This document shows, piece by piece, positions 1-16,912 of a stretch of DNA of 38,398 nt. The stretch is from an uncultured Actinomycetes bacterium (GTDB lineage: Bacteria > Actinomycetota > Actinomycetes > Nanopelagicales > Nanopelagicaceae). Position numbers and translations under genes: made by a program. The DNA lies in the NCBI GenBank assembly GCA_903827945.1, contig CAIKKN010000034.1, positions 1-38,398 of the forward strand, in the 5' to 3' direction. Position 1 is the stretch's first letter. Each line of letters starts with the position of its first letter. A model generated the notes under the pieces. The model saw only the letters and a program-made list of their open reading frames with translations, ran no database searches and was not told where the DNA came from.

Positions 1-132
1 ATTTTTCCCAGTTAGAAGATCTGTCATAACAAAATTGATCTGAATCGCTGAAGCTGCTTGAGCCGAAATATCAAATACTGAGTTAGATAAAAGTGCAAAG
101 CCCAGTAAGCCAAAGGTGATTAGTTTGCGCAT
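1..132 (-). CDS. Secreted protein, N-terminal fragment (runs off the window)
   Basis: Only the first 44 codons lie in the window, so the function cannot be named. The reading starts MRKLITFGLLGFALL and ends at the window edge. Residues 1-29 look like a Sec signal peptide: basic N-terminus, a hydrophobic stretch at about 4-20, and a likely cleavage site after the AQAASA segment. The start is supported by a GGAGAG Shine-Dalgarno sequence at 143-148, 10 bases before the ATG. That site lies in the loop of a hairpin which is shared with the metallopeptidase gene starting at 16889. The first bases of both genes (ATGCGCAAA) are also identical. The neighbour on the plus strand is a truncated permease-oxidoreductase ORF, so the region between them may be a rearrangement junction. 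Confidence 0.75.
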   Translation of the reverse strand, partial: MRKLITFGLLGFALLSNSVFDISAQAASAIQINFVMTDLLTGKN

Positions 133-134
133 TA

Positions 135-156
135 AAATCTACCTCTCCGTAGATTT
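135..156 (-). promoter_or_regulatory. Hairpin with the Shine-Dalgarno sequence in its loop (copy 1)
   Basis: Read on the minus strand, arms AAATCTAC and GTAGATTT form a perfect 8-bp stem around the six-base loop GGAGAG. This is the only Shine-Dalgarno candidate for the secreted-protein gene starting at 132. A near-identical element is at 16893-16912. Control of translation is inferred; the complementarity and the second copy are seen directly. Confidence 0.7.
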
Positions 157-159
157 GAC

Positions 160-173
160 ACCCTTAGAAGGGT
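160..173. repeat. Short perfect inverted repeat, possible operator
   Basis: ACCCTT-AG-AAGGGT is a perfect 6-bp inverted repeat with a 2-base centre. It sits between the putative -10 (187-192) and the hairpin of the secreted-protein gene, so it would fall in the first transcribed bases. It could bind a repressor or be chance. Confidence 0.35.
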
Positions 174-186
174 AGCGCTTGGTATG

Positions 187-192
187 ACTATA
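187..192 (-). promoter_or_regulatory. Putative -10 (TATAGT) of the secreted-protein gene at 132
   Basis: TATAGT on the minus strand would give a 5' leader of roughly 45-50 bases containing the hairpin at 135-156. No convincing -35 was seen. Confidence 0.35.
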
Positions 193-214
193 GCCGCCAA
201 TCACCAAATAATCA

Positions 215-2215
215 TTGGCATCAGCCGATGGCGGCGTCTTTGTGCTGAATTTACTCAATCATTATGGCGGGACAGTCTTGTTTGATATTGGCGCTGTTCT
301 TCTTTGTACAAGCGTCCTGGCAGGATATTCGGCGCTTCACAATGCTGCCAGCAGATATCTCTTTGCACTTGGACGTGAAAATATTGCGCCCCATGTTTTT
401 GGTGAATACCACAAAGATTTCTTCAGTCCCCATATAGCAAGCCTTGCAATCACCGCAATCGCATCCGTCGTCTCGGTTGCATTTGCAGTAGGCGGAGCAG
501 ATCCGTATAAAGTTTTTGCTGCAAGTCTCATCGCGGTAGGAACTTTAGGAATCGTCGCCCTCCAAGCTTTCGCATCACTTTCGGTGGTGGTCTTCTTTTG
601 GAAGCGAAAAGATCGAAAGTTCTGGGAAGGCTTCCTAGCTCCACTTATCGGATTTGTTGGCCTCTTGGGTGCTTTTGCGCTTGCTGCAACGCACTACAAC
701 ACGTTGACTGGGACCGATAACAAACTCATTAACCTTGTGCCGATACTTCTTGTTGTAGTTACAGTTGCTGGAATTGCAAATGGAGTTCGTATCAAAAAGA
801 GCAAACCCGTGATTTATGCCAAGTTAGCATCGACGCAACTTCGTTCGCGAAAAGAGTCAGACATTGTTGCTCCAAAGATTGAGTACACCAAGAAATATTG
901 CTTAGTCGGCGCTGGCCCGGCTGGATTAGTCATGGCCCGCGCGCTCATTAAAGAAGGTGTGCCCTTTGATTGGTATGAACGCCATTTCGATGTTGGTGGC
1001 ATCTGGGATATGAATAATCCAGGTACTCCAATGTATGAAAGCTGCCATTTCATCTCTTCCAAATACACCAGTGGCTTCTACGGATTCCCAATGTCTTCGG
1101 ATCTTCCGGACTATCCATCAGGAAATCAAATTCTCACGTATATTCGAGAATTCGCGGATAAATATGATTTGAAGCGTCGAGTCAATTTTGGTGTTTCGAT
1201 TTCAGAGGCCCATTCGATAGAGAATGATCAATGGCGCGTCACTCTTTCCAATGGCAAGAGTGAAATCTACGAAGGTTTAATCAACGCTACCGGTGTCACA
1301 TGGCACGCAAATAGACCACACATAAGTGGCGAGGAGAATTTCAAGGGCAAAATCATGCACTCGGTCGAGTATCAATCGCCATCAGAATTTTCAGGTAAGA
1401 GAGTGTTAATTGTGGGTGCAGGAAATTCCGGTGTCGACATCGCATCCGATGCAGCTCAATCTTCTGATCAGGCTTACTTCTCTGTGCGCCGTGGCTACCG
1501 CTACATCCCAAAATATATATTTGGATTACCAACAGATGCTTTGATGTCTGGAAAAGTTCAAGCTCCCAAAGGTGTTTCTATTTCAGGTGATACCTCGAAG
1601 ATGATTGATACGCTCGTTGGCGATCTAACTCGCTATGGTCTTCCAAAACCGGATCATGATCTCCTTGCAAGCCATCCCATAATGAACACGCAAGTTCTCC
1701 ATCACTTGGGGCATGGCGATCTCATTGCCAAGCCAGATGTTCAAGAGATAACTGAAACAGGAGTCACTTTCAAGGATGGAAGTCACGTCGATGTGGATCT
1801 GATTGTTCTTGCCACCGGTTATTCATACTCTGTGCCGTATTTGGACCAAACCGATGATGAGTGGAAGGACGGGCGCCCTCAACTTTATCTACGCATCCTC
1901 TCCCGCAAGCACCCGAACCTTTACTTCATTGGTTATGCGGAATTCGCCGATGCTGCTTACAAGCGCTTCGACGAGATGGCGCAGATGGTTGTCATCGATA
2001 TTCGCGCGCGAACAACGGGCGTCCACTATCCAGAGCTGTTGGAACTTCGTAATAGTGATAATCCAGATCTAGCTGGTGGCCATAAATACATTGATAGCCC
2101 ACGACATACGAACTACATCGAGGTTGAAACGTATCTCAACTACCTAGCCATTCTTCGTGATCGCTTTGATTGGCCCGAGGTCGACGATACGACTTATCAA
2201 GGCCTTATTCGATAA
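215..2215 (+). CDS. 5'-truncated amino-acid permease fused to a flavin monooxygenase
   Basis: The ORF encodes 666 residues in two parts. Residues 1-195 match the C-terminal end of an APC-superfamily amino-acid permease: about five membrane segments (near 18-38, 73-92, 100-128, 140-160, 172-190) and the family-typical HNAASRYLFALGRE after the first. The roughly seven N-terminal segments of a normal 12-segment permease are missing. Residues 226-666 form a flavin-containing monooxygenase: the FAD motif GAGPAG (232-237), the family signature FxGxxxHxxxY (376-386), the NADPH motif GAGNSG (401-406) and a late ATGY. The only start is TTG at 215, with an in-frame TAA at 209-211, no Shine-Dalgarno site and no TAnnnT box, unlike most genes here. 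Permease homology begins right at the start codon, so this is probably the remainder of a longer fusion gene cut at about position 212. Whether it is still expressed is unknown. Its 3' end overlaps the SDR gene by 11 bp. Confidence 0.75.
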   Translation: MASADGGVFVLNLLNHYGGTVLFDIGAVLLCTSVLAGYSALHNAASRYLFALGRENIAPHVFGEYHKDFFSPHIASLAITAIASVVSVAFAVGGADPYKVFAASLIAVGTLGIVALQAFASLSVVVFFWKRKDRKFWEGFLAPLIGFVGLLGAFALAATHYNTLTGTDNKLINLVPILLVVVTVAGIANGVRIKKSKPVIYAKLASTQLRSRKESDIVAPKIEYTKKYCLVGAGPAGLVMARALIKEGVPFDWYERHFDVGGIWDMNNPGTPMYESCHFISSKYTSGFYGFPMSSDLPDYPSGNQILTYIREFADKYDLKRRVNFGVSISEAHSIENDQWRVTLSNGKSEIYEGLINATGVTWHANRPHISGEENFKGKIMHSVEYQSPSEFSGKRVLIVGAGNSGVDIASDAAQSSDQAYFSVRRGYRYIPKYIFGLPTDALMSGKVQAPKGVSISGDTSKMIDTLVGDLTRYGLPKPDHDLLASHPIMNTQVLHHLGHGDLIAKPDVQEITETGVTFKDGSHVDVDLIVLATGYSYSVPYLDQTDDEWKDGRPQLYLRILSRKHPNLYFIGYAEFADAAYKRFDEMAQMVVIDIRARTTGVHYPELLELRNSDNPDLAGGHKYIDSPRHTNYIEVETYLNYLAILRDRFDWPEVDDTTYQGLIR

Positions 2216-3074
2216 TCTCCCATACGCCATTTACTTGTTTTGCGATGCCTCGCGTTTCAAGTTCTTTGAGGTAACGCTTGTGTCCTCGATCGCCCTTGCC
2301 TACGAAGAGAGGCATAAGGCTAGGAAGTTGGCTTGGAAATAGCATCGCGATGCGCACCAACCAAGATTCACTTGGCTTTGGATAAACCTCGAATTTTGGT
2401 TTGTCGAGCATCTTAATAAAAGCTTTTACAACATCTTCGGTTTTCTGGGGTGGATCCATAAATTGAAGTGAGTTTCCGCCTTCTACAGCCTCGCGTTGCA
2501 ACATGGGAGTATCGGTAGCCGAAGGCATCACCGAACCAACCTTGATTCCCTTTGGTCCAAAGTCCAAACTCATTGAGAGCATTGCTCCGCGAAGGCCAAA
2601 TTTTGAGATTGTGTATAGCGGAGTTTCGCCGAGTGGGAAAATTCCACCTAAGGAAACTGTTGTGATTATTCTCGGATCATCTGATTTTTTCAGCAAATCA
2701 ATAGAGCTTCGAATGATTACCAGTGGCGATCGAAGATTAATATCTAACTCGTATTCGATGCTGTCGATGCTACGTTCATCAAACCTATCGGTCGTGGTGA
2801 TCGCCGCATTTGGTATCAACACATCAATTTTTCCGTACTTGGTGGAAATTTCATCAATTGCTGCGGTGATCGCGTTTCGATCGGTCAAATCAAGAGGTAT
2901 CGAGTGATGACCAGATCCTGTGAGCGAATTGAGCACATTGTGAAGTCGGGCGCTATTCAGATCTAGAAGTACTAATTTCGCACCTCTCTCAGAAAACTCT
3001 CGGGCTAAGTGCGAACCGATTCCGCCCGCTCCTCCTGTTATGACAATTACCTTCTCTTCGTAGTCATATTTCAT
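2205..3074 (-). CDS. Short-chain dehydrogenase/reductase (SDR)
   Basis: A classical SDR of 289 residues, an NAD(P)-dependent oxidoreductase of unknown substrate. It shows TGGAGGIG (13-20) for cofactor binding, NAA (89-91), and the catalytic set Ser141, Tyr154 and Lys158 (YTISK). An acidic residue at the end of the second strand (LLDLN, 35-39) suggests a preference for NAD. It carries about 40 residues beyond the usual 250-residue core, after a hydrophobic PSQLPSLMPLF stretch. The ATG at 3074 is preceded by TACCCT (3081-3086) with 6 bases between. It is tail-to-tail with the monooxygenase fusion, and the pair could act on the same oxidised substrate, but only proximity suggests that. Confidence 0.88.
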   Translation of the reverse strand: MKYDYEEKVIVITGGAGGIGSHLAREFSERGAKLVLLDLNSARLHNVLNSLTGSGHHSIPLDLTDRNAITAAIDEISTKYGKIDVLIPNAAITTTDRFDERSIDSIEYELDINLRSPLVIIRSSIDLLKKSDDPRIITTVSLGGIFPLGETPLYTISKFGLRGAMLSMSLDFGPKGIKVGSVMPSATDTPMLQREAVEGGNSLQFMDPPQKTEDVVKAFIKMLDKPKFEVYPKPSESWLVRIAMLFPSQLPSLMPLFVGKGDRGHKRYLKELETRGIAKQVNGVWEIIE

Positions 3075-3080
3075 CTGGAA

Positions 3081-3086
3081 AGGGTA
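3081..3086 (-). promoter_or_regulatory. -10 box TACCCT, leaderless start of the SDR gene
   Basis: TACCCT, then TTCCAG, then ATG at 3074. No purine-rich ribosome site lies in between. Confidence 0.6.
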
Positions 3087-3117
3087 CTTCTCTTTAGCGC
3101 GATATTGAAGATTTCTC

Positions 3118-3123
3118 TAGTAT
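3118..3123 (+). promoter_or_regulatory. -10 box TAGTAT, leaderless start of the DnaX-C-like gene
   Basis: TAGTAT ends 6 bases before the GTG at 3130. The spacing favours this GTG over the overlapping GTG at 3128. Confidence 0.5.
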
Positions 3124-3129
3124 TAGCGT

Positions 3130-3390
3130 GTGCAGATTGAGCAGCTTAAGAGTCAGTGGAATGGCGTTCTCGATTATCTGCTGGAGCAGGATCGGATCGC
3201 ATGGCTGGCCTTCTTTGATGCTCGTTTGGTCTCTTTGGAATCTAATGTTCTGACAATCAACTTTGCAGATAGTCAGAAGTTTGGTGGTCAGCACGATTTC
3301 ACCTTCGCACGCAATCCCAAGCACCTTGCTCTGCTTCACCAGGCAATCACTTCAGTTTTGGGTCAGGATCTTGAGGTGATTGAAGAATGA
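3130..3390 (+). CDS. Free-standing DnaX C-terminal (tau)-like small protein
   Basis: An 86-residue protein whose pattern resembles the C-terminal domain of actinobacterial DnaX (DNA polymerase III tau). It has a Trp followed by a Val-Leu pair (W10, VL), an R-x-A-W motif (22-25), a DAxxVSLExNVLTxxF strand pair (30-46), and a closing LxxAIxxVLGxxxxVIEE (68-86). Normally this region sits at the end of a protein of more than 500 residues with an AAA+ ATPase; here there is no ATPase part. The GTG start follows TAGTAT with 6 bases between. Its stop overlaps the lysozyme start as ATGA (3387-3390), implying translational coupling to an apparently unrelated gene. The family match is by eye and moderately sure; a role in the replisome is inference. 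Confidence 0.65.
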   Translation: MQIEQLKSQWNGVLDYLLEQDRIAWLAFFDARLVSLESNVLTINFADSQKFGGQHDFTFARNPKHLALLHQAITSVLGQDLEVIEE

Positions 3391-4673
3391 AGAAACTTCT
3401 CTTAAGTATTGCTCTTGCGTTGAGTCTGATTGCAAACAACGCTTTTGCTTTCACGCCTAAATCCATAGTTGCCCTCGGGCCCGGTGATCATATTCATGGA
3501 ATGGATATCTCGTATTGGCAGCACCCTGCAGGTAGCGCAATTGATTTCAAAAAAATGTATGCCGCAGGTATTCGATTTGTGATGATTAAAGGCGCAGACG
3601 CTCACGATGTCGCTGATGCTCAAGCGCTGAAATATCTGAAGATTGATCGTCCCGCCGCCCAAGCCGCGCGTTTGTACACGGGCTTTTATTATTACGCCTA
3701 CCTTCCAGATAGCGTTGATCCAGGCTTCATAATTAAGGACGCACAAGCCCAAGCCCAAAAAGTCATCTGGCGATTAGCCTCAATCGGGGGCTACAACTTC
3801 CGCGATATGCCAATTTCAATCGACTTAGAAAATAATTGCGTTCGCACCGCAGCAAATGGAAACTGCTCCAAGTATATGAACCGGGCAAATGTAACGTTGT
3901 GGGCCAAGACATGGCTTGCCTCTGTAACGGCAAAAACCAATCGGAAACCTTTTCTTTATTCGTATGCGAATTTTCTAGAACAAACCTTGGCGCGCGATCC
4001 AGAGCTTCGACAATACCCATTGTGGATGGCTCACTACACACTCAATCCTGCAAGCTCACAACCAAATCAAAAAACTGTTGGTTGTTACGCGCACGCATGG
4101 TCGAATGCAAATTGCACGGCGCAGTGGCAGATGTGGCAGTACACATCGTGTGGAATCGCCGGGAAATATGGCGTCCCTGGAAGCCGGGTAGATCTGAATG
4201 TATTTGCCGGAACTTCACGTCAATTTCTTGCACTCATGAGTAGGACGTGGGTTCCAGATGTCACAGATCTTCTTCCCGTCGATGAAGCCACAACGATGAC
4301 GATGAGTGATCCCATTGCTTCGGATACCAATGTGCCAGTGAAAATTACCGCCGATGTCGTACGCCCAGATGGCACACCGGTTGTAGCCGGAACAATTAAA
4401 TGGCAATCAGCTGATACAACTCAATCAAATGGCACTCAAACAGTTGCTCGTGCTGCAAGTGGAAGATTTGTTCTTAGTATTAAAGGACTTCCAGCAGGTA
4501 CGTATGTAGGATCGGTTAACTTTGAGGACATCACCGGAACACATGCTTCAAACCAATTACCAGCCACTTTTACAATCACGCAAGGTGTAACCCCTACCCC
4601 AACGCCAACTCCTACGGTTTCTAAAACTCCAAAACCACCAGTCGATACTTGCGCAGGACAGATCCGAATTTAG
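3387..4673 (+). CDS. Secreted GH25 lysozyme (muramidase) with Ig-like domain
   Basis: Hydrolyses the beta-1,4 bond between N-acetylmuramic acid and N-acetylglucosamine in peptidoglycan (family knowledge). A signal peptide covers residues 1-22 (cleavage after AFA). The GH25 barrel spans about 36-280: GMDISYWQ (38-45, Asp40), the catalytic pair in SIDLEN (Asp146, Glu148), LWMAHY, and the C-terminal VDLNVF with the Asp typical of the family. Residues of about 295-400 form an Ig-like beta domain, followed by a TP-repeat linker and a short Cys-containing tail. The tail suggests wall binding or a surface tether, but no LPXTG motif is present. The ATG overlaps the upstream stop. The gene converges on the ACT gene with a 4-bp gap. 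Confidence 0.9.
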   Translation: MKKLLLSIALALSLIANNAFAFTPKSIVALGPGDHIHGMDISYWQHPAGSAIDFKKMYAAGIRFVMIKGADAHDVADAQALKYLKIDRPAAQAARLYTGFYYYAYLPDSVDPGFIIKDAQAQAQKVIWRLASIGGYNFRDMPISIDLENNCVRTAANGNCSKYMNRANVTLWAKTWLASVTAKTNRKPFLYSYANFLEQTLARDPELRQYPLWMAHYTLNPASSQPNQKTVGCYAHAWSNANCTAQWQMWQYTSCGIAGKYGVPGSRVDLNVFAGTSRQFLALMSRTWVPDVTDLLPVDEATTMTMSDPIASDTNVPVKITADVVRPDGTPVVAGTIKWQSADTTQSNGTQTVARAASGRFVLSIKGLPAGTYVGSVNFEDITGTHASNQLPATFTITQGVTPTPTPTPTVSKTPKPPVDTCAGQIRI

Positions 4674-4677
4674 CTTT

Positions 4678-4914
4678 TTATGCTGGGTTGCAGGAAATTA
4701 CTTCGACTCCACCAATTTGTTTCAAGATGTCCAACAAATCAGTTGCATCACTGCCCGGTACAGCAACAATAATTTCATCGTATCCGCGACCATCAACGCT
4801 TTTGAGAACCTGTAGCCCACGGATATCTCCGCCGGCAAAACCAATTGCAGAAGCGACCGCTCCGAGTGAACCGGGACGATCAGGAAGTGTTATTTCAATC
4901 TTAAATAGCGCCAT
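4678..4914 (-). CDS. Single ACT-domain protein
   Basis: A 78-residue protein that is essentially one ACT domain, a small-ligand (usually amino-acid) sensing fold. It starts MALFKIEITLPDRPGSLG; the DRPGSL turn and the following Gly-rich helix start (GFAGGDI) are the family hallmarks. The longer reading from 4995 adds 27 low-similarity residues and overlaps the next gene. The ATG at 4914 is preferred because TATCTT (4921-4926) lies 6 bases upstream. No enzyme domain is attached, so it probably regulates a partner in amino-acid metabolism. Confidence 0.8.
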   Translation of the reverse strand: MALFKIEITLPDRPGSLGAVASAIGFAGGDIRGLQVLKSVDGRGYDEIIVAVPGSDATDLLDILKQIGGVEVISCNPA

Positions 4915-4920
4915 GGCATA

Positions 4921-4926
4921 AAGATA
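4921..4926 (-). promoter_or_regulatory. -10 box TATCTT, leaderless start of the ACT gene
   Basis: TATCTT, then TATGCC, then ATG at 4914. It lies in the 46-bp gap after the DoxX-Rieske gene, so the ACT gene can be transcribed on its own. Confidence 0.55.
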
Positions 4927-4960
4927 ACAGACCCGTGTTAACAGGGAATTACGATTAAGT

Positions 4961-5839
4961 TTAAATCTGGACGATGTTTGCGCCTTGGATTGCAACTTTT
5001 ATCTTTGGTAGCGGCGTTGGCGCAGGGCCAGCTACAACTTTTGCTCCATTGTTTGGATCAAAGCGGGCACCATGGCATGGGCAAGCAAGTTGATTTCCAA
5101 GTGAGTCGTAGTTAACCGTACAACCCTGATGTGTGCAGATTGCCGTGTATGCAAAGACACCGGCGGCTGTCTTGAAAAGATATGCAGGTGATCCATCTAG
5201 CGCGGTGAACTTCTTCACTTCCCCAACTTTCACATCTGCATTCTTAGCAATAATTGCGCTCACGGCTACCTTCTTTGGCTTAAATGAACCGCCAGCAAGA
5301 GCGCCAATAACTGCAGCGATACCAACTCCAACTAAGCGCATCACTTCTCGGCGATCGCGAAGATTTGGAATTAATCCCCCATCGCGTCGACCCCGGCCGT
5401 TGCTTGAATTTCGAACCATAAAGAAAAGTGCAAGCCAGAGAACGGCGTAAGGAAGATCGCTGCCTAAGAAGTATGGATGAACGTGATAGCTAACTGATAG
5501 CCACAAGACAATAGCCATTGAGAATCCACCGAGCGCCGCCGCTTGAAGTGCAACTCCAGCAAGCACTGCGATTCCTATCGCGAATTCTGACAACATAACA
5601 AACCAGGCAAAGATTGTTGCGTGTTCCAAAATTTTTGTGAGACCAAATGAGAGAGGTGAATGCCCAATCATTCCATTGATCTGCGCACCGAAGTATGTTG
5701 ATGATGCTTTATCTAGATATCCGCTGTCGATTGCTTTCGACCAACCGCCGTATACCCATGTAACGCCAAGCCAGAGGCGAATGATTGTCATTGGTAGCGG
5801 TTGTGCCCGCCATGAGTTGATGCCAAAACGTGAGGTCAT
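4961..5839 (-). CDS. DoxX/DoxD-like membrane domain fused to a Rieske [2Fe-2S] domain
   Basis: A 292-residue two-domain redox protein. The N-terminal part (about 1-150) is a four-segment membrane domain of the DoxX/TQO-DoxD type: RLWLGVTWVYGGWSKA near the start, then hydrophobic helices through LWLALFFMV. A basic linker (RGRRDGG..RDRREVMR) and another hydrophobic stretch resembling an uncleaved signal anchor lead into a Rieske domain in the last about 100 residues. That domain carries both cluster-binding motifs, CTHQGC and CPCHG (two Cys and two His). It would pass electrons at the outer membrane face, perhaps to or from quinones (inference). An upstream ATG at 5899 overlaps the divergent hydrolase start. 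The ATG at 5839 is chosen because TATCCT (5846-5851) lies 6 bases before it and family similarity starts soon after. Confidence 0.83.
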   Translation of the reverse strand: MTSRFGINSWRAQPLPMTIIRLWLGVTWVYGGWSKAIDSGYLDKASSTYFGAQINGMIGHSPLSFGLTKILEHATIFAWFVMLSEFAIGIAVLAGVALQAAALGGFSMAIVLWLSVSYHVHPYFLGSDLPYAVLWLALFFMVRNSSNGRGRRDGGLIPNLRDRREVMRLVGVGIAAVIGALAGGSFKPKKVAVSAIIAKNADVKVGEVKKFTALDGSPAYLFKTAAGVFAYTAICTHQGCTVNYDSLGNQLACPCHGARFDPNNGAKVVAGPAPTPLPKIKVAIQGANIVQI

Positions 5840-5845
5840 AGCAGG

Positions 5846-5851
5846 AGGATA
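5846..5851 (-). promoter_or_regulatory. -10 box TATCCT, leaderless start of the DoxX-Rieske gene
   Basis: TATCCT, then CCTGCT, then ATG at 5839. It decides the start against the longer ORF from 5899. Confidence 0.55.
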
Positions 5852-5885
5852 ACCTCCAAACCTTAAAATTGGGGACCATCGCAAG

Positions 5886-5891
5886 TAGAGT
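5886..5891 (+). promoter_or_regulatory. -10 box TAGAGT, leaderless start of the dienelactone hydrolase gene
   Basis: TAGAGT, then TCTTTC, then ATG at 5898. Together with the box at 5846-5851 it makes a compact divergent promoter of about 50 bp. Confidence 0.6.
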
Positions 5892-5897
5892 TCTTTC

Positions 5898-6581
5898 ATG
5901 GGTAAAAATCTTGAGTTTGAATTAAATGACGCAAGTGGGTCTGGCTACCTAGCGACACCACAAAACGGGAGCGGCCCGGCTGTAATTGTCATCCAAGAAT
6001 GGTGGGGGCTAGTTGGTCACATCACCGATGTCGTTGACAGGTTTGCTGCTGCAGGGTTTGTTGCATTTGCGCCAGATCTGTATCACGGACAAGCCGCGGC
6101 AGAGCCTGACACTGCAAAAAAATTGATGATGGAGTTGCAGTTAGATAAAGCAGGTAAAGAAATTATCAACTCTGCTAAATATTTAATGTCTTTGCCCGAG
6201 ACCTCTTCTAAAACCGTTGGAACCGTAGGTTTTTGTATGGGCGGTTCACTCTCAATTTGGAGTGGAACTCTTGACCCGGTCATTGATAGAGCGGTGGGTT
6301 TCTACCCGGGTTCCTCGTGGGAGCGGCACGCGCCAAAGTGGAGTAATTACAAGGGGAAGAGGGCGATGATTCATTGCGCTGAAAGTGATGGAACTTCTAG
6401 CGCCCCTGGAATTCAAGAGGCTATTGGCGGTATTACTGGAGCAGGTGGATCAATAGAAGTCTTTGATTATTCTGGAACCCAGCACGCCTTTTTTAATAAC
6501 GATCGCCCTGAAGTGTTCAATCCGGCGGCCTCACAGCTGGCGTGGGACCGCACGGTGAACTTTCTTAAGGACAAGGTATAG
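5898..6581 (+). CDS. Dienelactone hydrolase family protein
   Basis: An alpha/beta hydrolase of 227 residues, close to the usual family length. It shows the QEWWGL motif (Glu36 region), a Cys nucleophile in GFCMGG (Cys113), an acidic residue in AESDG (Asp164), and the catalytic His in GTQHAFF (His196), which is the Cys-Asp-His triad of the family. Canonical members open dienelactones in chlorocatechol breakdown. No aromatic-degradation genes are nearby, so the true substrate is unknown. It is cytoplasmic (no signal peptide) and converges on the next SDR gene with a 9-bp gap. Confidence 0.88.
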   Translation: MGKNLEFELNDASGSGYLATPQNGSGPAVIVIQEWWGLVGHITDVVDRFAAAGFVAFAPDLYHGQAAAEPDTAKKLMMELQLDKAGKEIINSAKYLMSLPETSSKTVGTVGFCMGGSLSIWSGTLDPVIDRAVGFYPGSSWERHAPKWSNYKGKRAMIHCAESDGTSSAPGIQEAIGGITGAGGSIEVFDYSGTQHAFFNNDRPEVFNPAASQLAWDRTVNFLKDKV

Positions 6582-6590
6582 CTATAAGTC

Positions 6591-7325
6591 TTATGACTGC
6601 TGATTCATTGACCAGAGAGTCCAGATATGGGTACGTACTGAACGAGGTTGCTTCAAGATTGTTGTGATTTGAAAAGCAATATCTTCAGAACGAAGGAAGC
6701 TTGCAAGAACTGGAGTTCCCGCGGTGCGACCCGCGCCGATTGCGAATTCTGTCTCTGTTCCTGCAGGGCAAACCAATGCAACGCGTACGCCTTTTTCACG
6801 AAGCTCGCGATCAAGACCGCCTGCTAAGCCGACCTGTGCATGCTTTGTGCCTGCGTAGATGGATTCATCCCCGCCGCCACGGAAACCTGCAACGGATGAA
6901 ACGATGACGATGTCGCCAGCCTTCTTTTCAAGCATTGCTGGAAGACATGCACGAATGATGTGAACAGTGCCCTCATAGTTTGTGCGCATCATGCGATTTA
7001 CTTCATCATCGCTGTAATCCAAAATTGAACCGTACATTCCGATTCCAGCATTCGGCACCACTGCATCGATAGTTCCAAACTTATCGATTGCTGCCTTTGC
7101 AACCGCCTTAGAAACGCTTGGTTCTGAGCAATCACCAGCAACATATGTTGCGTTTGCTTCGCCTAATGAAGCAACTATTTCTTTCAGACGTTCTTCGTTA
7201 CGAGCATTAAGCACAACTTTGGCGCCTTGCTCGACTAACTCTTTGGCCGTTGCAGCGCCCATTCCAGCGGTAGCTCCGGTAATTACGATTACTTGATCTT
7301 TTAGGTCTCTCAATTGATAGGTCAT
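6591..7325 (-). CDS. Short-chain dehydrogenase/reductase (SDR)
   Basis: An NAD(P)-dependent oxidoreductase of 244 residues, typical for classical SDRs. Motifs are TGATAGMG (16-23), NAGIG (92-96), and the catalytic Ser144, Tyr157 and Lys161 (YAGTK). Asn40-Ala-Arg42 after the second strand suggests NADP(H). The open frame extends to 7499, but the extra 58 residues are not SDR-like. The ATG at 7325 is supported by TAGAAT (7331-7336) with 5 bases between. The substrate is unknown. It is divergent from the SOUL gene. Confidence 0.88.
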   Translation of the reverse strand: MTYQLRDLKDQVIVITGATAGMGAATAKELVEQGAKVVLNARNEERLKEIVASLGEANATYVAGDCSEPSVSKAVAKAAIDKFGTIDAVVPNAGIGMYGSILDYSDDEVNRMMRTNYEGTVHIIRACLPAMLEKKAGDIVIVSSVAGFRGGGDESIYAGTKHAQVGLAGGLDRELREKGVRVALVCPAGTETEFAIGAGRTAGTPVLASFLRSEDIAFQITTILKQPRSVRTHIWTLWSMNQQS

Positions 7326-7330
7326 GGCGC

Positions 7331-7336
7331 ATTCTA
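7331..7336 (-). promoter_or_regulatory. -10 box TAGAAT, leaderless start of the second SDR gene
   Basis: TAGAAT, then GCGCC, then ATG at 7325. Confidence 0.55.
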
Positions 7337-7395
7337 TGCATAAGTTGTCAGGTAGTTGCAAGATGATTGTTGGTATCAGATCAGACTGGAAGAAG

Positions 7396-7401
7396 TAGAA
7401 T
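7396..7401 (+). promoter_or_regulatory. -10 box TAGAAT, leaderless start of the SOUL gene
   Basis: TAGAAT, then CTAAGC, then ATG at 7408. Confidence 0.6.
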
Positions 7402-7407
7402 CTAAGC

Positions 7408-7926: not shown

Positions 7927-7927
7927 T

Positions 7928-9714: not shown

Positions 9715-11024
9715 GCATTTAGTACTGCAGCTGCCTTTGTAGCTGCATCATCTAGTGCTTTCTGAGGAGTCTTCTGTCCAATAAGGGCCTTAGAGACTTC
9801 CGCTTGGATAACCAGTGACATTGCGTTGTACTTTGTTACCTGAGGACGCAAGATCATGTCATTGAGTTCCTTCTTGGCTTGTGCAACGACAGCTGGCGAT
9901 GTTTTCACAACGACAGGATCGGTGTACGAGGACTTCCATACTGGCAGTGAATCCATTGCGACGGCATTCTGTTCCTTCTGGCTTGTTAGGAAGGACATAT
10001 ATGCCCAAGCAGCCTCAGGATTTTTAGTTCCTGAACTCATGGACAACGCCATGCTTCCGTTGATTCCAGGGCGCTTTCCACCGGGACCAGCAGGAGTTTG
10101 AAGAACCTTCATCTTGCCTGCAACTTTGCTCTGCTTTGGATCATTAGCCATTGCCCACATATAGGTCCAGTTAAGACCCATACTGATTTGTCCTGCAGAG
10201 AACATCTTGCGAACGTCATCTTCAGCTGCAGTTGCGGTCGAGACTGGATCTGTTAATCCATCAACGATCGACTTGCGCATGAACTCGAGTGCTTGAACTC
10301 CGCCGCCCTTGTTAAAGGCTGGCTTGCCCGAAGCATCAAGGAATTGTCCGCCGAATGCGCCAAGCAATTGCATGTAATCGCAAAGCATGGATTCAGATTG
10401 TGTCCAAGACCATGCGAGTGGATACTTAACAAGTCCGGCCTTCTTGATCGCAGAAGCGGCCTTCATTACGCCATCCCATGTATCAAGGGATGCTTCATCC
10501 ACCTTGGCTTTTGCCATGTGTTCGGTGTTGTAGAAGAAATACTTTGTATCTAGAATCCAAGGAATTCCGTAGTAATGCTTGTTATAGACAGCTGTAGCAA
10601 CAGCCCCGCCAAGCATGTCATTTGTCCAAGAAGCGGGCCAACGATTGGTGATATCCACGACCATCTTCTTGCTTCCAAATTCTGCAGGCCAGATTACGTC
10701 AATCAACACAACGTCATATGTATGTGCCAGCGCGGAAGTAACAATCTTGTCGTGCAAAGCTTCGTATGCGACAAACTCTGTCTTGACCGTAACATTTGGA
10801 TAAACCTTTTTGAAATCTGCAGTCATTTTCGCAACGTCGGTATCTGAGTAACCGGCTTGCTTCATGAAGAGAGCACTAATCGTGCCCTTTACATTTGCCG
10901 CTTTACTGAAACCTGCCGCATAACCTTCTGTCGGCATCATTGTTACTAACCCCGCAGCTGCGCCGGCTCCGAGAATGGCGCGACGTGAAACCTGGCGATC
11001 TGTGATTGATTCTTCGTTTTCCAT
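9711..11024 (-). CDS. Sugar ABC transporter substrate-binding protein (Tat-exported)
   Basis: An extracellular solute-binding protein of 437 residues, family 1 type. The N-terminus carries a twin-arginine signal (SRRAILGAG, Arg14-Arg15) with a hydrophobic stretch and likely cleavage near GYAAG. There is no lipobox Cys, so it may be a soluble Tat substrate or stay anchored. Aromatic residues in the mature part (several Trp and Tyr, for example WSWTQSE and WTYMWA) suit sugar stacking. It is the first gene of the operon. Its ATG follows AGGAAGG, about 11 bases away, so it has a leader, unlike most genes here. The divergent NagB-like gene suggests an amino-sugar ligand (inference). Confidence 0.9.
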   Translation of the reverse strand: MENEESITDRQVSRRAILGAGAAAGLVTMMPTEGYAAGFSKAANVKGTISALFMKQAGYSDTDVAKMTADFKKVYPNVTVKTEFVAYEALHDKIVTSALAHTYDVVLIDVIWPAEFGSKKMVVDITNRWPASWTNDMLGGAVATAVYNKHYYGIPWILDTKYFFYNTEHMAKAKVDEASLDTWDGVMKAASAIKKAGLVKYPLAWSWTQSESMLCDYMQLLGAFGGQFLDASGKPAFNKGGGVQALEFMRKSIVDGLTDPVSTATAAEDDVRKMFSAGQISMGLNWTYMWAMANDPKQSKVAGKMKVLQTPAGPGGKRPGINGSMALSMSSGTKNPEAAWAYMSFLTSQKEQNAVAMDSLPVWKSSYTDPVVVKTSPAVVAQAKKELNDMILRPQVTKYNAMSLVIQAEVSKALIGQKTPQKALDDAATKAAAVLNA

Positions 11025-11046
11025 TTAAAAGAAATCCTTCCTGTTG

Positions 11047-11067
11047 ACCTATAGGTTGAACAGATTA
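11047..11067 (-). promoter_or_regulatory. Promoter and palindromic operator candidate of the sugar importer operon
   Basis: A perfect 10-bp palindrome, ACCTATAGGT, is at 11047-11056. On the minus strand TAATCT (11062-11067) could be the -10, which would place the palindrome at the transcription start, a typical repressor site. The 150-bp gap 11025-11174 also holds TAGAAT at 11106-11111 as a possible plus-strand -10. No cognate regulator gene is in the window. Confidence 0.4.
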
Positions 11068-11174
11068 ATTGCACCTATTCAATACCCGTTATGTGTAGGC
11101 GTCAATAGAATTAGGCTCAAAAGGGTGGCGTTTCGCACCCACTCATGGTTATTGTTCTAGCAGGGGTGGTAAAC

Positions 11175-12101
11175 ATGGCAAGTAACGATTTCACATACGA
11201 CTTAGCAAAGTTCATCGATTTTCAGGACAAGGACGCCTGTGAACGGGTGAGGGCAATCAAGAAGAAGGACATTGCCAAGACTGACAATCCAAATCTAAAA
11301 ATCAAAGTAATCGATTCAAAGGCTAAGTTTTACAAAGCGTTTGCTGAAGATCTGGTGGGCAGGATTGAGAAAGCTCGCGATGAAAGCAAGACTTTCGTAG
11401 CTATCGTTCCTGTTGGCCCTGTCCCACAATACGAAATTGCTGCGAAGATCATCAACAAGAAGAAGATAAGCATGGAGCACGTCCACTTCTTCAATATGGA
11501 CGAGTATGCAGACCAAGACGGCAACACCGCTCCTATTTCATGGGCTGGTTCATTCCAAAAGGCCATGCATGACAACTTCCTCTTAAAAATTGATAAGAAG
11601 CTTCGCCCTAAAGAATCTCAACTCAATTTCCCAACAACAGCAGCGATCAGCTCCTACACCTCAAAGATTGAAGATCTTGGCGGAGCCGATGTTTGTTATG
11701 GCGGCATCGGTTGGTGTGGACATATTGCCTTCTGGGAATCAGACCTAGGAAAAGAATTCCGTGGCGACCATGAAGCATTTAGAAACGCTGGTCCACGAAC
11801 AGTTGAATTAACGCCAATGACCGTGATGCAAAACGCACTTCACACATTTGGGGGCGACTGGTCTTGGGTTCCACCAAAAGCAAACACCATTGGCCCTGTC
11901 AACATTCTTACAGCAAGAGACAGAAGCTTCTGGCTAGATGGTTACCTCGGTGGTGGAGTCTCATGGCAGCGCTTCATCGCGCGCTTGGTTCTTCACGGTC
12001 CCGTATCTGAATTTGTTCCAGGTTCATTCCTGCAAACTGTGCCATCAAAGATCAACATCTTGGGTGGCGTTGCCGATGACCTTGAAATTAATATGGCTTA
12101 A
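11175..12101 (+). CDS. NagB-like glucosamine-6-phosphate deaminase/isomerase family protein
   Basis: A 308-residue protein of the NagB/RpiA/6-phosphogluconolactonase fold, longer than usual NagB (about 240-270). It keeps FNMDEY (the Asp72 equivalent), GHIAFWES (the His143 and Glu148 equivalents), a VELTPMTV strand, and the C-terminal SxLQ region. The stretch that reads GNDGH in E. coli NagB reads GWCGH here, so the Asp141 equivalent is Cys, and HIAFNEP has become HIAFWES. It may act on a different sugar phosphate. The start at 11175 is preferred over 11145 because GGGGTGG lies 6-7 bases upstream. It is divergent from the sugar importer and probably processes the imported sugar. Confidence 0.75.
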   Translation: MASNDFTYDLAKFIDFQDKDACERVRAIKKKDIAKTDNPNLKIKVIDSKAKFYKAFAEDLVGRIEKARDESKTFVAIVPVGPVPQYEIAAKIINKKKISMEHVHFFNMDEYADQDGNTAPISWAGSFQKAMHDNFLLKIDKKLRPKESQLNFPTTAAISSYTSKIEDLGGADVCYGGIGWCGHIAFWESDLGKEFRGDHEAFRNAGPRTVELTPMTVMQNALHTFGGDWSWVPPKANTIGPVNILTARDRSFWLDGYLGGGVSWQRFIARLVLHGPVSEFVPGSFLQTVPSKINILGGVADDLEINMA

Positions 12102-12105
12102 CGCG

Positions 12106-12885
12106 CTAGTTGTGCGCCACTGCTGTTAAGAGGACATCTACAAGAGCGAGAGCCATAATCGCTGCAAAGCCAAGCTTTCTTGGTTTCACAATGAGCGCGA
12201 TCAACGATGCGAGGAGCGCCGCATAGGCCCACGCGCCGTAGTGCGGGCGATGCGTCGCAACGATCGGCGTAATCGCAATCAGAATCAGAACGCAAATGGA
12301 AACCGAATATTTCATTCCAATTCGTTGAGGCAATCCATTTATGCCAAGTTCGCGATCTGCGTCCAAATCTTTAAGAACGTTTGCAAAATGAGCGATAGTT
12401 CCAAATCCTGCGCCGACAACAACCATCCATAGCGGTGGCGCCATTTCGCGAGCGACGAATGCGGCAGACGGTAGCGCGGCGAAAGCGAAGGTGTAGGGCA
12501 ACAGAGAGAACAGAGTTCGCTTAAAATAGAAGTTATAGGAAACTCCGCAGCCAACACCGAAAAGATGGAGAAGCCCTCCACGAATTCCAAGAGGGCCAAG
12601 AAGTGAGAGTCCAACGCATATTGGTAAATCAATCCAAAGTGAACGAAGGAGGGAAGATTCCTTCAACTCCCCCGTTACTAATGGTTTTTCAAGACGACCT
12701 TGCGCTTTGTCTGATTCAACATCCACTAATTCGTTTGTCCATCCAACTATCAGCTGTCCTGAAAAGATTGTTAGAGCGATAACGAAAGAATTAGCCAGAG
12801 TAAAGAGCGGATGCGCCAAGAAAAAGGCTAGAGACGTTACAAGTAACGTTGGGCCTAGATGGCTCGCCTTTAGGTACTTCAACAT
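12106..12885 (-). CDS. UbiA family prenyltransferase
   Basis: An integral membrane protein of 259 residues with about eight or nine helices. Both Asp-rich motifs of the family are present: NELVDVESD (Asn51, Asp55, Asp59) and KDLDADRELG near residues 167-176. They bind the Mg2+-diphosphate of a prenyl donor. Family members attach prenyl chains to quinone, heme or other aromatic acceptors; the acceptor cannot be told here, and no menaquinone genes adjoin. The ATG follows TAGTAT (12891-12896) with 5 bases between. It converges on the NagB-like gene with a 4-bp gap. Confidence 0.87.
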   Translation of the reverse strand: MLKYLKASHLGPTLLVTSLAFFLAHPLFTLANSFVIALTIFSGQLIVGWTNELVDVESDKAQGRLEKPLVTGELKESSLLRSLWIDLPICVGLSLLGPLGIRGGLLHLFGVGCGVSYNFYFKRTLFSLLPYTFAFAALPSAAFVAREMAPPLWMVVVGAGFGTIAHFANVLKDLDADRELGINGLPQRIGMKYSVSICVLILIAITPIVATHRPHYGAWAYAALLASLIALIVKPRKLGFAAIMALALVDVLLTAVAHN

Positions 12886-12890
12886 GCTGG

Positions 12891-12896
12891 ATACTA
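12891..12896 (-). promoter_or_regulatory. -10 box TAGTAT, leaderless start of the UbiA gene
   Basis: TAGTAT, then CCAGC, then ATG at 12885. It lies just after the stop of the secreted repeat protein gene. Confidence 0.55.
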
Positions 12897-12923
12897 ACTG
12901 TTTATGTGTTGGCTATGAGCGCC

Positions 12924-14903
12924 TTAATACGTAATGAACTGATGTCCTTTGTCGTAATAAGGATTGCTCTTATCGGTAATGAGAATCGTTCCAGAGAGAG
13001 TCAACCCCCAACGCACGCCGGCAGCGTTCTGCCAGTAATAGCCCGAAGCATCTCTGTTGATGGTTCCGATATGCCAAGCATTTGCTTGCGCTCCATTCAG
13101 TGATGGAATATCGGCGTAACAACCGAGGAGATTACCTGGCGACGTTACTGCAGTTGATCCGCCGTCAACCAAACGCAGGTAATTTTCTCCACCAGATCCA
13201 TCAAATTTGTATCCAGAAATCTTTGGTTGAGCTCCACCAACGGTATCCATTACAGCAGGACACTTTGCTGGCCACTTCGCGTCGCCGACTCCTGCTGCTT
13301 GCAAAATGGGAGATGGTGCTGGCTTTGGTGGCGGTGGTAGAAAACTTGATTGCAATACAAATTGATGTCCATCTGAATAATATGGATTCTCTTTGCCTGT
13401 ATTCATTACCGAACCAGACAAGGCCAAACTCCATTTTATTCCTTCACCATTCACCCAGTAATAGCCAGTCTCATCATGACTGATGGAGCCAATGGCCCAC
13501 AGATTTCCACCGGGACTGCTGAGGAGAGTTTCAAAGTCGGCGTAGCAACCGACAAGACTCGCTGGCGCTGTAGCTGCAACATTTGTTCCTTCACCAATTC
13601 TTTCAAATTTCTGTTGTGTTGCATCAAAGAGGAAGCCGACAACACTTGGTTCATTCTTGTTAGCAGTATTGACTACCTCAGGACATAAAGAAGGGAAACC
13701 CGATCCCTTTGCTGGCGTAGTTGCTTCTGGCGTATAGGCAGGTGCACTTGGAACTTTTCCCTGGCTGATGTCAGGGAATGAATCGCTTGGAAGTTGTGGT
13801 CGCACATACGTAGATGCAAAGGCGTGAATCATGTTGTCGCCAGTTTCAAAGTCATTCTGACAAAGAACTGTTCCGTTAAAGAATCCAATAAAGACAGGGT
13901 TCTTACCACCTAAATCCGCAACGCATTCGGACTGCCCCTGATTCTGCCAATGAGTGCCATCTGTCAAAAATCCATGGAATACAAGACCTGTAATTCGAGC
14001 ATCAGGAAATCCGGTGACGCAAGAAGGAGATGTGGCAATGTGTTCAAATTGTCCATCTTTTGAAAGAACGGTTCCTACTGGGCAACCAAAAAGCGGGCTG
14101 TTGATATCGCTGGGCATGTTAAGCGACCAACCGGCTGAAGTTAATTGTCCAACTACTACCGAGTCAGGTAAATCAAATTGATGAGTTAGCTTGCCATTCT
14201 CAAGATAAAAGTAAGAAAGATTTCGCGAATCAGTCGTTGAATCGGACTGCACAAGTATCTGATGTGCTCCTAACCAAATCAAGTCAACTGAATGACCTGC
14301 AGGAAGATCTACTTTTGTGATTTTGTCAGACTTGGAAATTGCAAAAATTGAGTCAACATTGAAGTTCCAACCCGCAGCGGCACGTGCTCCTGCTCGCTTT
14401 GGGTTATAACCCTTTGCACGCTTTAATTGGTGGGAGGAACAACCTACGTAGAGATAATCTCCTGATGCGATTCCTGCTGTACAAGATTTATATCCAGGGA
14501 ACTGCCATTTCTTGATTTTGTCATTGCCATCAACGGAGAGCACGTCGAAGAAACCAGACTTTGTCGCCCCGAGATATGCTTCAAAGAAATAACGATTATT
14601 AAAAGCGACAAATCCACCTGCTCTAGAAATTTGCTTTGGGTTGAGAACAATTGCGTGTTCCTTAAACTTATTATCTAACCAATAGAGCTGGCTCTGTGCT
14701 GGAGTAAGTCGAGTGCTTCCGCTATACGACAAGAAGAATCGGTCATCCAATGGAATTGGTTGCAGCGCCGCCAATGGGTCAGGTACTCGAGCGACCTTCC
14801 ATGTGGTTTTTAACTTGATCTTTATTTCCTGCGGCGAGGCTGCCTGAACTGGCTGAACTACCATCGCCAAGAGTGCAAAAATCGCGATTACGGCTTTTCT
14901 CAT
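12924..14903 (-). CDS. Large secreted protein with a tandem about 117-residue C-terminal repeat, unrecognised family
   Basis: A 659-residue protein with a signal peptide (1-21, QAA cleavage). I do not recognise the family. Residues of about 30-370 are rich in beta-type segments and Trp/Tyr/Gly, possibly a propeller (inference). After a PT-rich linker (about 378-400) come two similar units at 402-518 and 542-659, joined by PPPPKPAPSP (523-532). Both contain, in order, CP, G(Y/F)xF, GCYAD, W-x-IG-x-I, D-x-x-GYYW-x-N, W-x-L-x-LSG, NPYY and GHQF. The paired Cys in each unit suggest a disulphide. The start follows TAGCAT (14910-14915) with 6 bases between. It is the last of three adjacent secreted-protein genes on this strand. 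Confidence 0.8.
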   Translation of the reverse strand: MRKAVIAIFALLAMVVQPVQAASPQEIKIKLKTTWKVARVPDPLAALQPIPLDDRFFLSYSGSTRLTPAQSQLYWLDNKFKEHAIVLNPKQISRAGGFVAFNNRYFFEAYLGATKSGFFDVLSVDGNDKIKKWQFPGYKSCTAGIASGDYLYVGCSSHQLKRAKGYNPKRAGARAAAGWNFNVDSIFAISKSDKITKVDLPAGHSVDLIWLGAHQILVQSDSTTDSRNLSYFYLENGKLTHQFDLPDSVVVGQLTSAGWSLNMPSDINSPLFGCPVGTVLSKDGQFEHIATSPSCVTGFPDARITGLVFHGFLTDGTHWQNQGQSECVADLGGKNPVFIGFFNGTVLCQNDFETGDNMIHAFASTYVRPQLPSDSFPDISQGKVPSAPAYTPEATTPAKGSGFPSLCPEVVNTANKNEPSVVGFLFDATQQKFERIGEGTNVAATAPASLVGCYADFETLLSSPGGNLWAIGSISHDETGYYWVNGEGIKWSLALSGSVMNTGKENPYYSDGHQFVLQSSFLPPPPKPAPSPILQAAGVGDAKWPAKCPAVMDTVGGAQPKISGYKFDGSGGENYLRLVDGGSTAVTSPGNLLGCYADIPSLNGAQANAWHIGTINRDASGYYWQNAAGVRWGLTLSGTILITDKSNPYYDKGHQFITY

Positions 14904-14909
14904 CGGAGG

Positions 14910-14915
14910 ATGCTA
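14910..14915 (-). promoter_or_regulatory. -10 box TAGCAT, leaderless start of the secreted repeat protein gene
   Basis: TAGCAT, then CCTCCG, then ATG at 14903. It gives this gene its own promoter in the 68-bp gap after the preceding secreted gene. Confidence 0.55.
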
Positions 14916-14971
14916 CTGCACGTATCGTGACCTAACGCCCGGTGCCTGAAAAACCGCTTTATGTTTTGAAA

Positions 14972-15415
14972 TTAGGCGTTTGCCCCATCTAGCGACTTGA
15001 TCTCGTTCGCTGAATCTACGCCAAGGCGCTTATTTACTATTGAGAGGCCATAGGAAAGGGTGCGCTTTACTCCACGATAATCGACAGTAACCAACTGGCT
15101 AATACTGGCTTTGTCACTTACGCAGGCTCCAAAACCGAGGCCATCATTGAAGCTCAGGAATACATACTGACTTTTAATTGTCGCTTTGAAGACCTCAATT
15201 GAGACTGCCTTTTGAAAAGCCAAAGATGAATAGCTGTAAGCCCTCTTCCAATCATTCTTTGTGATGGCATCTATTTGCTTTGTTATATGTTTTATAACTG
15301 CTTGTTTTTGATTTTGACTACATGGGCTCACCTTTGAATAAGCATGAGCCGGTGCCATGCTTGAAGCAAACGCCACCAGCAAAGTAACTGCGACAATCTG
15401 GCTTCGCGTCTTCAT
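14972..15415 (-). CDS. Small secreted protein, DUF4864-like
   Basis: A 147-residue protein with a signal peptide (1-25, AHA cleavage). The mature part has the layout of DUF4864 or a related NTF2-like fold: a helix with ITKQIDAITKNDWKRAYSYSS (a small-residue repeat seen as A-x-x-x-D/N-D-x-x-x-A-Y in the family), then FKATIKSQYVFLSF and antiparallel strands ending RLGVDSANEI. Two Cys (32 and about 98) may form a disulphide. The role is unknown. A purine-rich AGGGG lies about 10 bases before the ATG, and the gene follows the metallopeptidase gene by 19 bp, so the two are probably one transcript. Confidence 0.7.
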   Translation of the reverse strand: MKTRSQIVAVTLLVAFASSMAPAHAYSKVSPCSQNQKQAVIKHITKQIDAITKNDWKRAYSYSSLAFQKAVSIEVFKATIKSQYVFLSFNDGLGFGACVSDKASISQLVTVDYRGVKRTLSYGLSIVNKRLGVDSANEIKSLDGANA

Positions 15416-15434
15416 TCGAGAAGGACCCCTACCC

Positions 15435-16889
15435 TTAATTCGTTCTCATTGGTTTAGCGGCATACTCTGCAGCAAGAATTTGTCCAAGAATTGTGGATCC
15501 CTCATCCCAACTCATTCCATAAACATTTTGGAAAGCTTGACTGAAATTGTCTCCCATAACGCCGCGTGAAACGAGAGCCATAACTGACTGGGGTCCGCCG
15601 ATTGCAAAAAGCGCCTCGGTGGCTGCAAAACCAATCGAGTAGCCCAATGCGTAAGAAGGGCTGCCGTAGCAAGTGTTTGCTACTGATTGATTAGAAATTT
15701 GAGAAGTGAGGAAGTCCTTTAACCCTGCAGCAGAGAAACCCTTAAAGTTAGCGGGCGTTGACCCAAGATGGGTGACTTGTCCATCACGGGAATCCAAATA
15801 TTCTCGCAAGGTTGTTGCGGATGCTCCAATTCCAGAAGAATTAGAAAGCCCTTCATTCAGCCAGCAGGGCATGAACATTTGTTCATAGTAGTTCTGATTT
15901 GCAGCAGACGTTCCAATGAATTGCGCGGAGGTTACTGTGTGCGTGTATTCATGTCCCACCTCACCGTTTTGAGTTGGGTCCCATGGATATGAAGTCGTTA
16001 CACCTAGAAATTCAACAGCTTCATCCGTCCCTGCCGTTTGACCAGCGTTTCCAGCATCGCAATTACTTGATTCAATTTGGCAACTTTGCTTTGCTCGATT
16101 AATCCCCTCTTGAGGGTCTTGGCTTCCAGGGTATGACCTGTCCTTCTGGACTTTGTTGTAAGTGGTCGCCGCCCAGTCCATATCTGCAAAGCTATAAGCA
16201 ATAACAGTTAAAAATTTTGTCTGTTGAAAACCGCCCCAGAGTTTGAACTCTCGAGAAAGTATATTTTCTTCAATAGTTTTGGTGACCGTCGTTGTATGTG
16301 GTCCAACCAGCAATTGATGCGGAACATCGACAGCAGCACTAGCATCGATAATATTTTGGATTCTCTGATAGGAAACGCTAGGAATATCGGAGATATGGCT
16401 CAAAGCATTAGCAAAGGTAATTGATCCATTTTGCACAACCGGTAGCGTGATTGGCATTGGTGCTTTAAAACTCGTAGGCGTTCCTTTATCCCACAGGAAT
16501 CCAGACCTTCGGTTGGTGCCCTCGCAGTAATAACGAAGATCGCCAACGGTTTTCCACTCTCCTGCTGTCGTACAACTTGATCCTGAGATCGCAGTGGTTG
16601 AGGGCTTAGCGCTAGAGCTCGGATTAGCAGTCGGTGCTGAAGATGGAGTTGGAGTTGGAGTTGCACCCGTCTTATTTGCTGAATTATTTGTAGATATTGG
16701 AGCTTTCCAAACACCCCAAATAAGCTTTTTGCCGCTCTTGACGCAGACAAACCTTACTTTCGGCGTATCAGCGAAGCTGCCCACTTTGGAACAGGTGCCG
16801 CCAATTTTGGGAGCAGCCGCGTTTGCCGGCGCTACAACCAAAGAGGATGCAAGAAAGAACATGGAGATTAAAATCGAAGATTTGCGCAT
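15435..16889 (-). CDS. Secreted zinc metallopeptidase (gluzincin-like) with duplicated two-Cys modules
   Basis: A 484-residue protein with a signal peptide (1-24, ANA cleavage). Residues 30-62 and 103-135 are two copies of a small module with the pattern GxxC..., R(F/Y)xC and (L/F)xW; the Cys spacing is 16 in both (Cys33/49 and Cys106/122). A Ser/Thr/Pro linker separates them. The C-terminal domain carries HEYTH (313-317), an HExxH zinc site, and NEG (345-347) 28 residues later, the gluzincin third-ligand pattern. No exact peptidase family was recognised, and the substrate is unknown. Translation is probably set by the hairpin at 16893-16912, which holds the Shine-Dalgarno sequence. Confidence 0.78.
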   Translation of the reverse strand: MRKSSILISMFFLASSLVVAPANAAAPKIGGTCSKVGSFADTPKVRFVCVKSGKKLIWGVWKAPISTNNSANKTGATPTPTPSSAPTANPSSSAKPSTTAISGSSCTTAGEWKTVGDLRYYCEGTNRRSGFLWDKGTPTSFKAPMPITLPVVQNGSITFANALSHISDIPSVSYQRIQNIIDASAAVDVPHQLLVGPHTTTVTKTIEENILSREFKLWGGFQQTKFLTVIAYSFADMDWAATTYNKVQKDRSYPGSQDPQEGINRAKQSCQIESSNCDAGNAGQTAGTDEAVEFLGVTTSYPWDPTQNGEVGHEYTHTVTSAQFIGTSAANQNYYEQMFMPCWLNEGLSNSSGIGASATTLREYLDSRDGQVTHLGSTPANFKGFSAAGLKDFLTSQISNQSVANTCYGSPSYALGYSIGFAATEALFAIGGPQSVMALVSRGVMGDNFSQAFQNVYGMSWDEGSTILGQILAAEYAAKPMRTN

Positions 16890-16892
16890 ATA

Positions 16893-16912
16893 AATCTACC
16901 TCTCCGTAGATT
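16893..16912 (-). promoter_or_regulatory. Hairpin with the Shine-Dalgarno sequence in its loop (copy 2)
   Basis: On the minus strand, arms AATCTAC and GTAGATT pair perfectly (7 bp) around the loop GGAGAG. Loop, arms and the following ATGCGCAAA match the element at 135-156. The loop is 10 bases from the ATG of the metallopeptidase gene. Confidence 0.7.

Follow-up and report, generated by a model that had tools for sequence, protein, structure and literature searches.

An invariant hairpin around the Shine-Dalgarno site precedes exchangeable secreted-protein genes in a few freshwater actinobacteria

CsrA is the best-known binder of GGA in a hairpin loop, and its usual sites vary in stem sequence. 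Leaders controlled by CsrA/RsmA have GGA in the loop of a short hairpin overlapping the ribosome site, and the hairpin described here likewise carries GGA in its loop, GGAGAG, near the Shine-Dalgarno sequence (SD). It differs in having a frozen stem and in the absence of the csrA gene (PF02599) from all 16 family genomes searched, including all 13 that carry the hairpin, compared with 3 positive genomes out of 14 controls; CsrA was therefore rejected as the reader of the hairpin. RNA thermometers such as ROSE and fourU also use a leader hairpin involving the SD, which is paired in the stem, whereas here the loop contains most of the SD, and none of the thermometer models in Rfam matches. Ordinary actinobacterial SD leaders likewise place the SD at a workable distance from the start codon, but lack the invariant 18-nt palindrome around it, which is limited to secreted genes in one family. 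In the vpma locus of Mycoplasma agalactiae, a fully identical 21 bp lies at -51 to -72 and a dedicated recombinase (Xer1) is encoded in the locus (PMC2268961). The vpma/vsp sites resemble the present element as short invariant sequences just before a set of variable surface-protein genes with a common leader and signal-peptide start (PMC2268961). In contrast, the core of the present element lies at -5 to -22, contains the SD, and is not accompanied by any dedicated tyrosine recombinase that could be found.

The window, i.e., the whole stretch of DNA analysed (38,398 nt, contig CAIKKN010000034.1, G+C content 47%), contains two copies of the hairpin. The original prediction placed them at 135-156 and 16893-16912 on the minus strand; both are exact, copy 1 lying precisely at 136-155. 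Read 5' to 3', each consists of AATCTAC, GGAGAG and GTAGATT, followed by a spacer, TTA or TAT, and then by ATGCGCAAA. The DNA flanking the two copies differs, as had been claimed. The features of the window considered here are:

1-132, minus strand: start of a secreted-protein gene (MRKLITFGLLGFALLSNSVFDISAQAASAIQINFVMTD...) behind hairpin copy 1, with an N-terminus resembling kelch-type family B
135-133, minus strand: spacer of copy 1, then ATG at 132-130
136-155, minus strand: hairpin copy 1, exact sequence; 5' arm 155-149 (AATCTAC), loop 148-143 (GGAGAG), 3' arm 142-136 (GTAGATT)
137-154, minus strand: invariant core of copy 1, identical at 18 of 18 positions with 15 other intact copies
159-174, minus strand: small upstream hairpin TACCCT-TCTA-AGGGTG, 3 nt before copy 1
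187-192, minus strand: candidate -10 box TATAGT for copy 1, weak and read from the sequence by consensus only
215-2215, plus strand: remnant of an amino-acid permease/flavin monooxygenase fusion, first ~344 codons missing
12924-14903, minus strand: third secreted gene (MRKAVIAIF...), without hairpin, own TANNNT at -12
14972-15415, minus strand: second secreted gene, DUF4864, 19 nt past the stop codon of the family A gene
15435-16889, minus strand: family A secreted protein of 484 aa, PKxGGxCSKVGS N-terminus, GHEYTH motif, led by copy 2
16892-16890, minus strand: spacer of copy 2, then ATG at 16889
16893-16912, minus strand: hairpin copy 2, exact sequence; 5' arm 16912-16906, loop 16905-16900, 3' arm 16899-16893
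16933-16938, minus strand: candidate -10 box TATCAT for copy 2, likewise a weak consensus match
16969-17042, minus strand: tRNA-Asn, just upstream of copy 2

The gene behind copy 1 is cut after 44 codons because this copy sits at the contig end; an IQINFVM/VQISFVM match read by eye makes it resemble family B. Copy 1 is located where the permease gene lost its 5' part, and nucleotide homology of the remnant to an intact 1011-codon relative (G025) starts at 223; the truncation is either a real insertion/deletion or an assembly junction. The 484-aa protein behind copy 2 has no match in Pfam or NCBIfam, and the DUF4864 gene is probably on the same transcript. The TANNNT of the third secreted gene suggests a leaderless start. 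Among ~32 other genes of the window, 12 have TANNNT at -11 to -13 (for example upstream of 3074, 5898, 12885, 14903, 18939, 23531, 29972, and 36848), and only four have an SD-like tetramer (GGAG, GAGG, or AGGA). This pattern looks like widespread leaderless transcription, in agreement with the earlier description of the region.

No match to the hairpin, even with three mismatches allowed, occurred in 100 dinucleotide shuffles of the window. Further copies in the genome and its relatives, on which the original prediction hung, were found: the same genome has a third exact 20-mer, at the end of its contig C17, and the hairpin is carried by 3 of 32 genomes of the genus and 13 of 296 genomes of the order, spread over five genera, in which a reversed control pattern had no match. 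When 84,980 species of bacteria and archaea were scanned, the only matches were ten actinobacterial MAG stretches and one chance match inside a Puniceibacterium contig. Small genome size, the G+C content of the window, and MAG names of freshwater type suggest the acI/Nanopelagicales group. Phage carriage was rejected, since the family A protein had no tblastn match among 50,697 phage records and the exact hairpin was not found in IMG/VR. Rfam models detected only tRNA in the window, with no cis-regulatory match to the hairpin, and only RNase P RNA and tRNA at four related loci, besides two sub-threshold chance matches. No description of the element was found in the literature covered, mainly freely accessible papers. 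The hairpin thus looks like a real but unstudied control element of a few freshwater actinobacteria, travelling with exchangeable surface-protein genes.

Not one position of the 18-nt core, ATCTACGGAGAGGTAGAT, varies among 16 intact copies. Identity among 11 divergent copies is no better than chance in the upstream 60 nt (28-31%) and in the 3-nt spacer (29%), and reaches 36% in codons 5-10. Exactly 3 nt, free in sequence, separate the hairpin from the ATG or TTG in all 16 intact copies, and the position relative to the start codon is constant. The fixed module can be written as ATCTAC-GGAGAG-GTAGAT, one base (usually T), three free bases, ATG or TTG, and usually CGN (Arg). Codon 2 is CGN in 15 of 16 intact hairpin genes vs 6 of 20 hairpin-less family A homologues (p 1e-4). 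The copies are related by descent or transfer, and their constant spacing does not represent 16 independent events. The core decays where the gene decays, or where the gene is later in an operon: it is damaged in the decayed gene L007 (AATCTGC) and in the pseudogene remnant L072 (GGAGATA), and is degenerate before a gene inside an operon (G171:C23:5904). In the same contig (L115, 4580-12327), four family A secreted genes follow one hairpin-led kelch gene, with an intact hairpin only at the first gene.

Recent copying of a single gene family, the hairpin being under no selection, would suit the sporadic distribution (13 of 296 genomes). This explanation is hardly credible, because within families A and B many of the hairpin-led proteins share only 35-55% identity, those of different families are unrelated, and the contrast between chance-level flanks and the unchanged core already contradicts it. 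The frozen core among such flanks and such proteins points to a selected element.

As claimed for the two window genes, every intact copy precedes a gene for a signal-peptide protein (signal peptides called by eye and a simple rule rather than by SignalP), and, judged on their mature parts, these proteins represent at least five families that appear unrelated: kelch, HExxH-like, Ig/cadherin-like, and two with no assignment. Family A starts with PKxGGxCSKVGS, and one member weakly matches an HExxH metalloprotease model. Family B consists of kelch propellers and is almost always led by the hairpin, which precedes five of the six homologues matching as far as the N-terminal region. L120 is a giant protein of Ig/cadherin/TIG type, and L111 and L123 have no convincing match. 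Most family A homologues elsewhere have no hairpin and look leaderless, as do most window genes, which makes SD-bearing leaders exceptional here. Several otherwise different secreted proteins have a common C-terminal tail, similar to ITCVKGKxxKKVTxxKPxCPxGYKKK (L115 ORF 10234-12327, L116 ORF 4076-6265, L117 ORF 1511-3637, L118 ORF 3722-5842, L123 ORF 1259-3094, and L007 at ~840-870), which is possibly a sorting or anchoring tag.

We tentatively regard the hairpin as an element that acts in cis on translation initiation, sits in the 5' leader of mobile secreted-protein genes, and is read by a sequence-specific factor; this seems quite possible, falling just short of probable, and both the factor and any regulation are part of the proposal. 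Transcription would start 25-100 nt upstream, judging from promoters that are consensus guesses, which would place the hairpin within the mRNA. The outermost A-U pair is missing in 4 of the 16 intact copies, and the conserved stem is therefore 6 bp. In silico, the isolated hairpin has about -6.5 kcal/mol at 37 C and forms in most leaders at 15 and 37 C, leaders L065 and L061 folding otherwise. The best SD match, GAGGU, straddles loop and stem, one half belonging to the loop and the other to the top two stem pairs; GGAGAG is computed to be unpaired in most leaders at both temperatures, with only the GU of GAGGU paired. With most of the SD in the loop and a stability that simply tracks temperature, the RNA thermometer initially suggested is unlikely.

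The arms were expected to show compensatory changes, and they do not co-vary: the core stem is invariant in the 16 intact copies. Nor were covarying or sequence-different hairpins with the SD in the loop present in ~500 kb of fetched DNA, and a loosened pattern run on the 296 genomes gave no alternative stems among the matches listed. Because the arms never vary, covariation cannot prove RNA pairing. Perfect dyad symmetry, strict letter conservation, and lack of covariation would all suit a DNA-binding dimer, in which case the palindrome ATCTAC-N6-GTAGAT would be a transcription factor operator overlapping the SD by chance. We consider such an operator distinctly unlikely, as the non-palindromic central GGAGAG is equally invariant, and the hairpin keeps a constant distance from the start codon, whereas its distance from the promoter probably differs (~20 nt in copy 2 and ~85 nt in the leaders of rnpB type, again by consensus promoters). 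Besides these two points, a second hairpin of differing sequence counts for RNA; it lies 2-4 nt upstream in 10 of 15 leaders vs 2.7 expected (p 5e-5; 0.006 in the reduced set). In rnpB-type leaders, which have TANNNT conserved at their head, a few upstream pairs change by G-U or on both sides, a level reached in 60 of 500 shuffles and thus not clearly above them.

Three other readings of the leader were rejected. Long-range pairing with the region around TAGCCT, proposed by RNAalifold, involves a probable -10 box and is not kept in G176. The TAGATT of the 3' arm would be misplaced as the -10 box of a leaderless transcript, since leaderless genes here have TANNNT at -12, not -9. An upstream reading frame in the rnpB-type leader is not conserved.

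The anti-SD duplex, computed with the canonical 16S tail, has -10 to -18 kcal/mol vs -6.5 to -12.9 for the hairpin and is stronger at every temperature computed. The hairpin would therefore be easily opened and would not by itself shut translation off, and a trans-acting factor, if any, would have to stabilise it. The same energetic advantage of the ribosome fits a constitutive, self-contained ribosome-binding module, in which the hairpin would present a strong SD and shield it from adjacent sequence, allowing moving genes to be translated in a mostly leaderless genome with no trans factor. The fixed distance from SD to start codon, the mobile contexts, and the leaderless background agree with this module as well. 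However, insulation needs structure only, and compensatory stem changes would then be expected; there are none among copies whose flanks are at chance identity, and we regard the module as rather unlikely. The letter-for-letter freezing of both stem and loop is what calls for a trans factor in the preferred reading.

Copies of the hairpin are found at exchange-prone places, including rnpB, tRNA-Asn, and the truncated permease gene. Those of G004, G009, and G285 are adjacent to rnpB, to which G062 is added by its leader and the C17 copy by a leader fragment; window copy 2 and a copy in G004 follow tRNA-Asn. In the relative G004, the same dnaG/tRNA-Asn site as that of copy 2 carries its hairpin with a decayed gene (L007). 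The rnpB leader of ~280 nt is 94% identical between G004 and G009 and is joined to unrelated genes, and a shorter, still homologous version precedes a different gene in G176, which indicates that the leader is portable. A leader of ~100 nt is homologous before the unrelated proteins A, C, and D.

Many genomes of the genus, as well as G285, have tandem repeats of the 3' end of the RNase P RNA gene (CGGCTTATAGGGCGACTCTTCTTT) downstream of rnpB, separated from one another by one or a few genes. Repeat positions include 1132, 1594, 2829, and 15399 in L112 (G028:C5), 807, 1018, and 1439 in L113 (G013:C18), and 191, 732, and 2343 in L081, with further loci in L114, L127, and L129. These repeats form an apparent integration hot spot with cassette-like arrays, and in G285 and G009 a hairpin gene lies in or adjoins such a cassette.

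By analogy with the mycoplasma vpma/vsp sites, the hairpin could itself be a recombination or switch site exchanging secreted-protein genes behind a common leader. The layout, inverted arms around an asymmetric core of 6 bp, fits a tyrosine-recombinase site, one and the same upstream leader stands before unrelated genes (L004 vs L005, L056, L065; L069), and vpma genes likewise have a common recombination site in the 5' UTR (PMC2268961). Six of 17 copies are no more than 600 nt away from a contig end vs ~2 expected, which is only suggestive, as multicopy signal-peptide genes alone can break contigs; the MAGs being fragmentary, some contexts, including that of window copy 1, could be assembly-affected. 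A dedicated tyrosine recombinase was not found in the locus or in six genomes (the window's genome and five other carriers), in a search for the tyrosine type (PF00589). There are only two PF00589 genes each in G000, G176, G264, and G300 and one each in G244 and G311, and two such enzymes fit XerC and XerD in number and size. Inverted site pairs within one contig were not seen, and the match of L004 to family A alleles continues past the hairpin through the spacer and codon 4, so that the junction of this one clear gene swap looks like ordinary homologous recombination. A switch site is thus quite improbable; if the hairpin were one, it would suggest that abundant lake bacteria vary their surface.

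Under the preferred reading, a translation-initiation element with its own reader, the portable 5'-UTR element would travel with horizontally exchanged secreted-protein operons, and recombination near the start codon would exchange the leader between unrelated secreted genes. An RNA-binding protein or small RNA recognising the hairpin would gate access of the ribosome to these operons. The original idea of a shared element for translation control stands as regards the copies, signal peptides, fixed position, and leaderless background, and fails on covariation and on the thermometer; the regulation itself we infer.

Knowledge of gene regulation in streamlined, mostly leaderless freshwater actinobacteria is very limited. 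The hairpin may belong to a clade-specific post-transcriptional regulon, in which an RNA-binding factor recognises the frozen hairpin with its ribosome site, and newly acquired surface genes join existing control by bringing the tag or by being swapped behind it; a regulon of this kind is a possibility that we hold to be somewhat unlikely. The 18-nt core could be used as bait in a hunt for this factor. Letter-perfect tagging of secreted genes that are exchanged horizontally would illustrate how variable surface genes stay under common control in a small genome.
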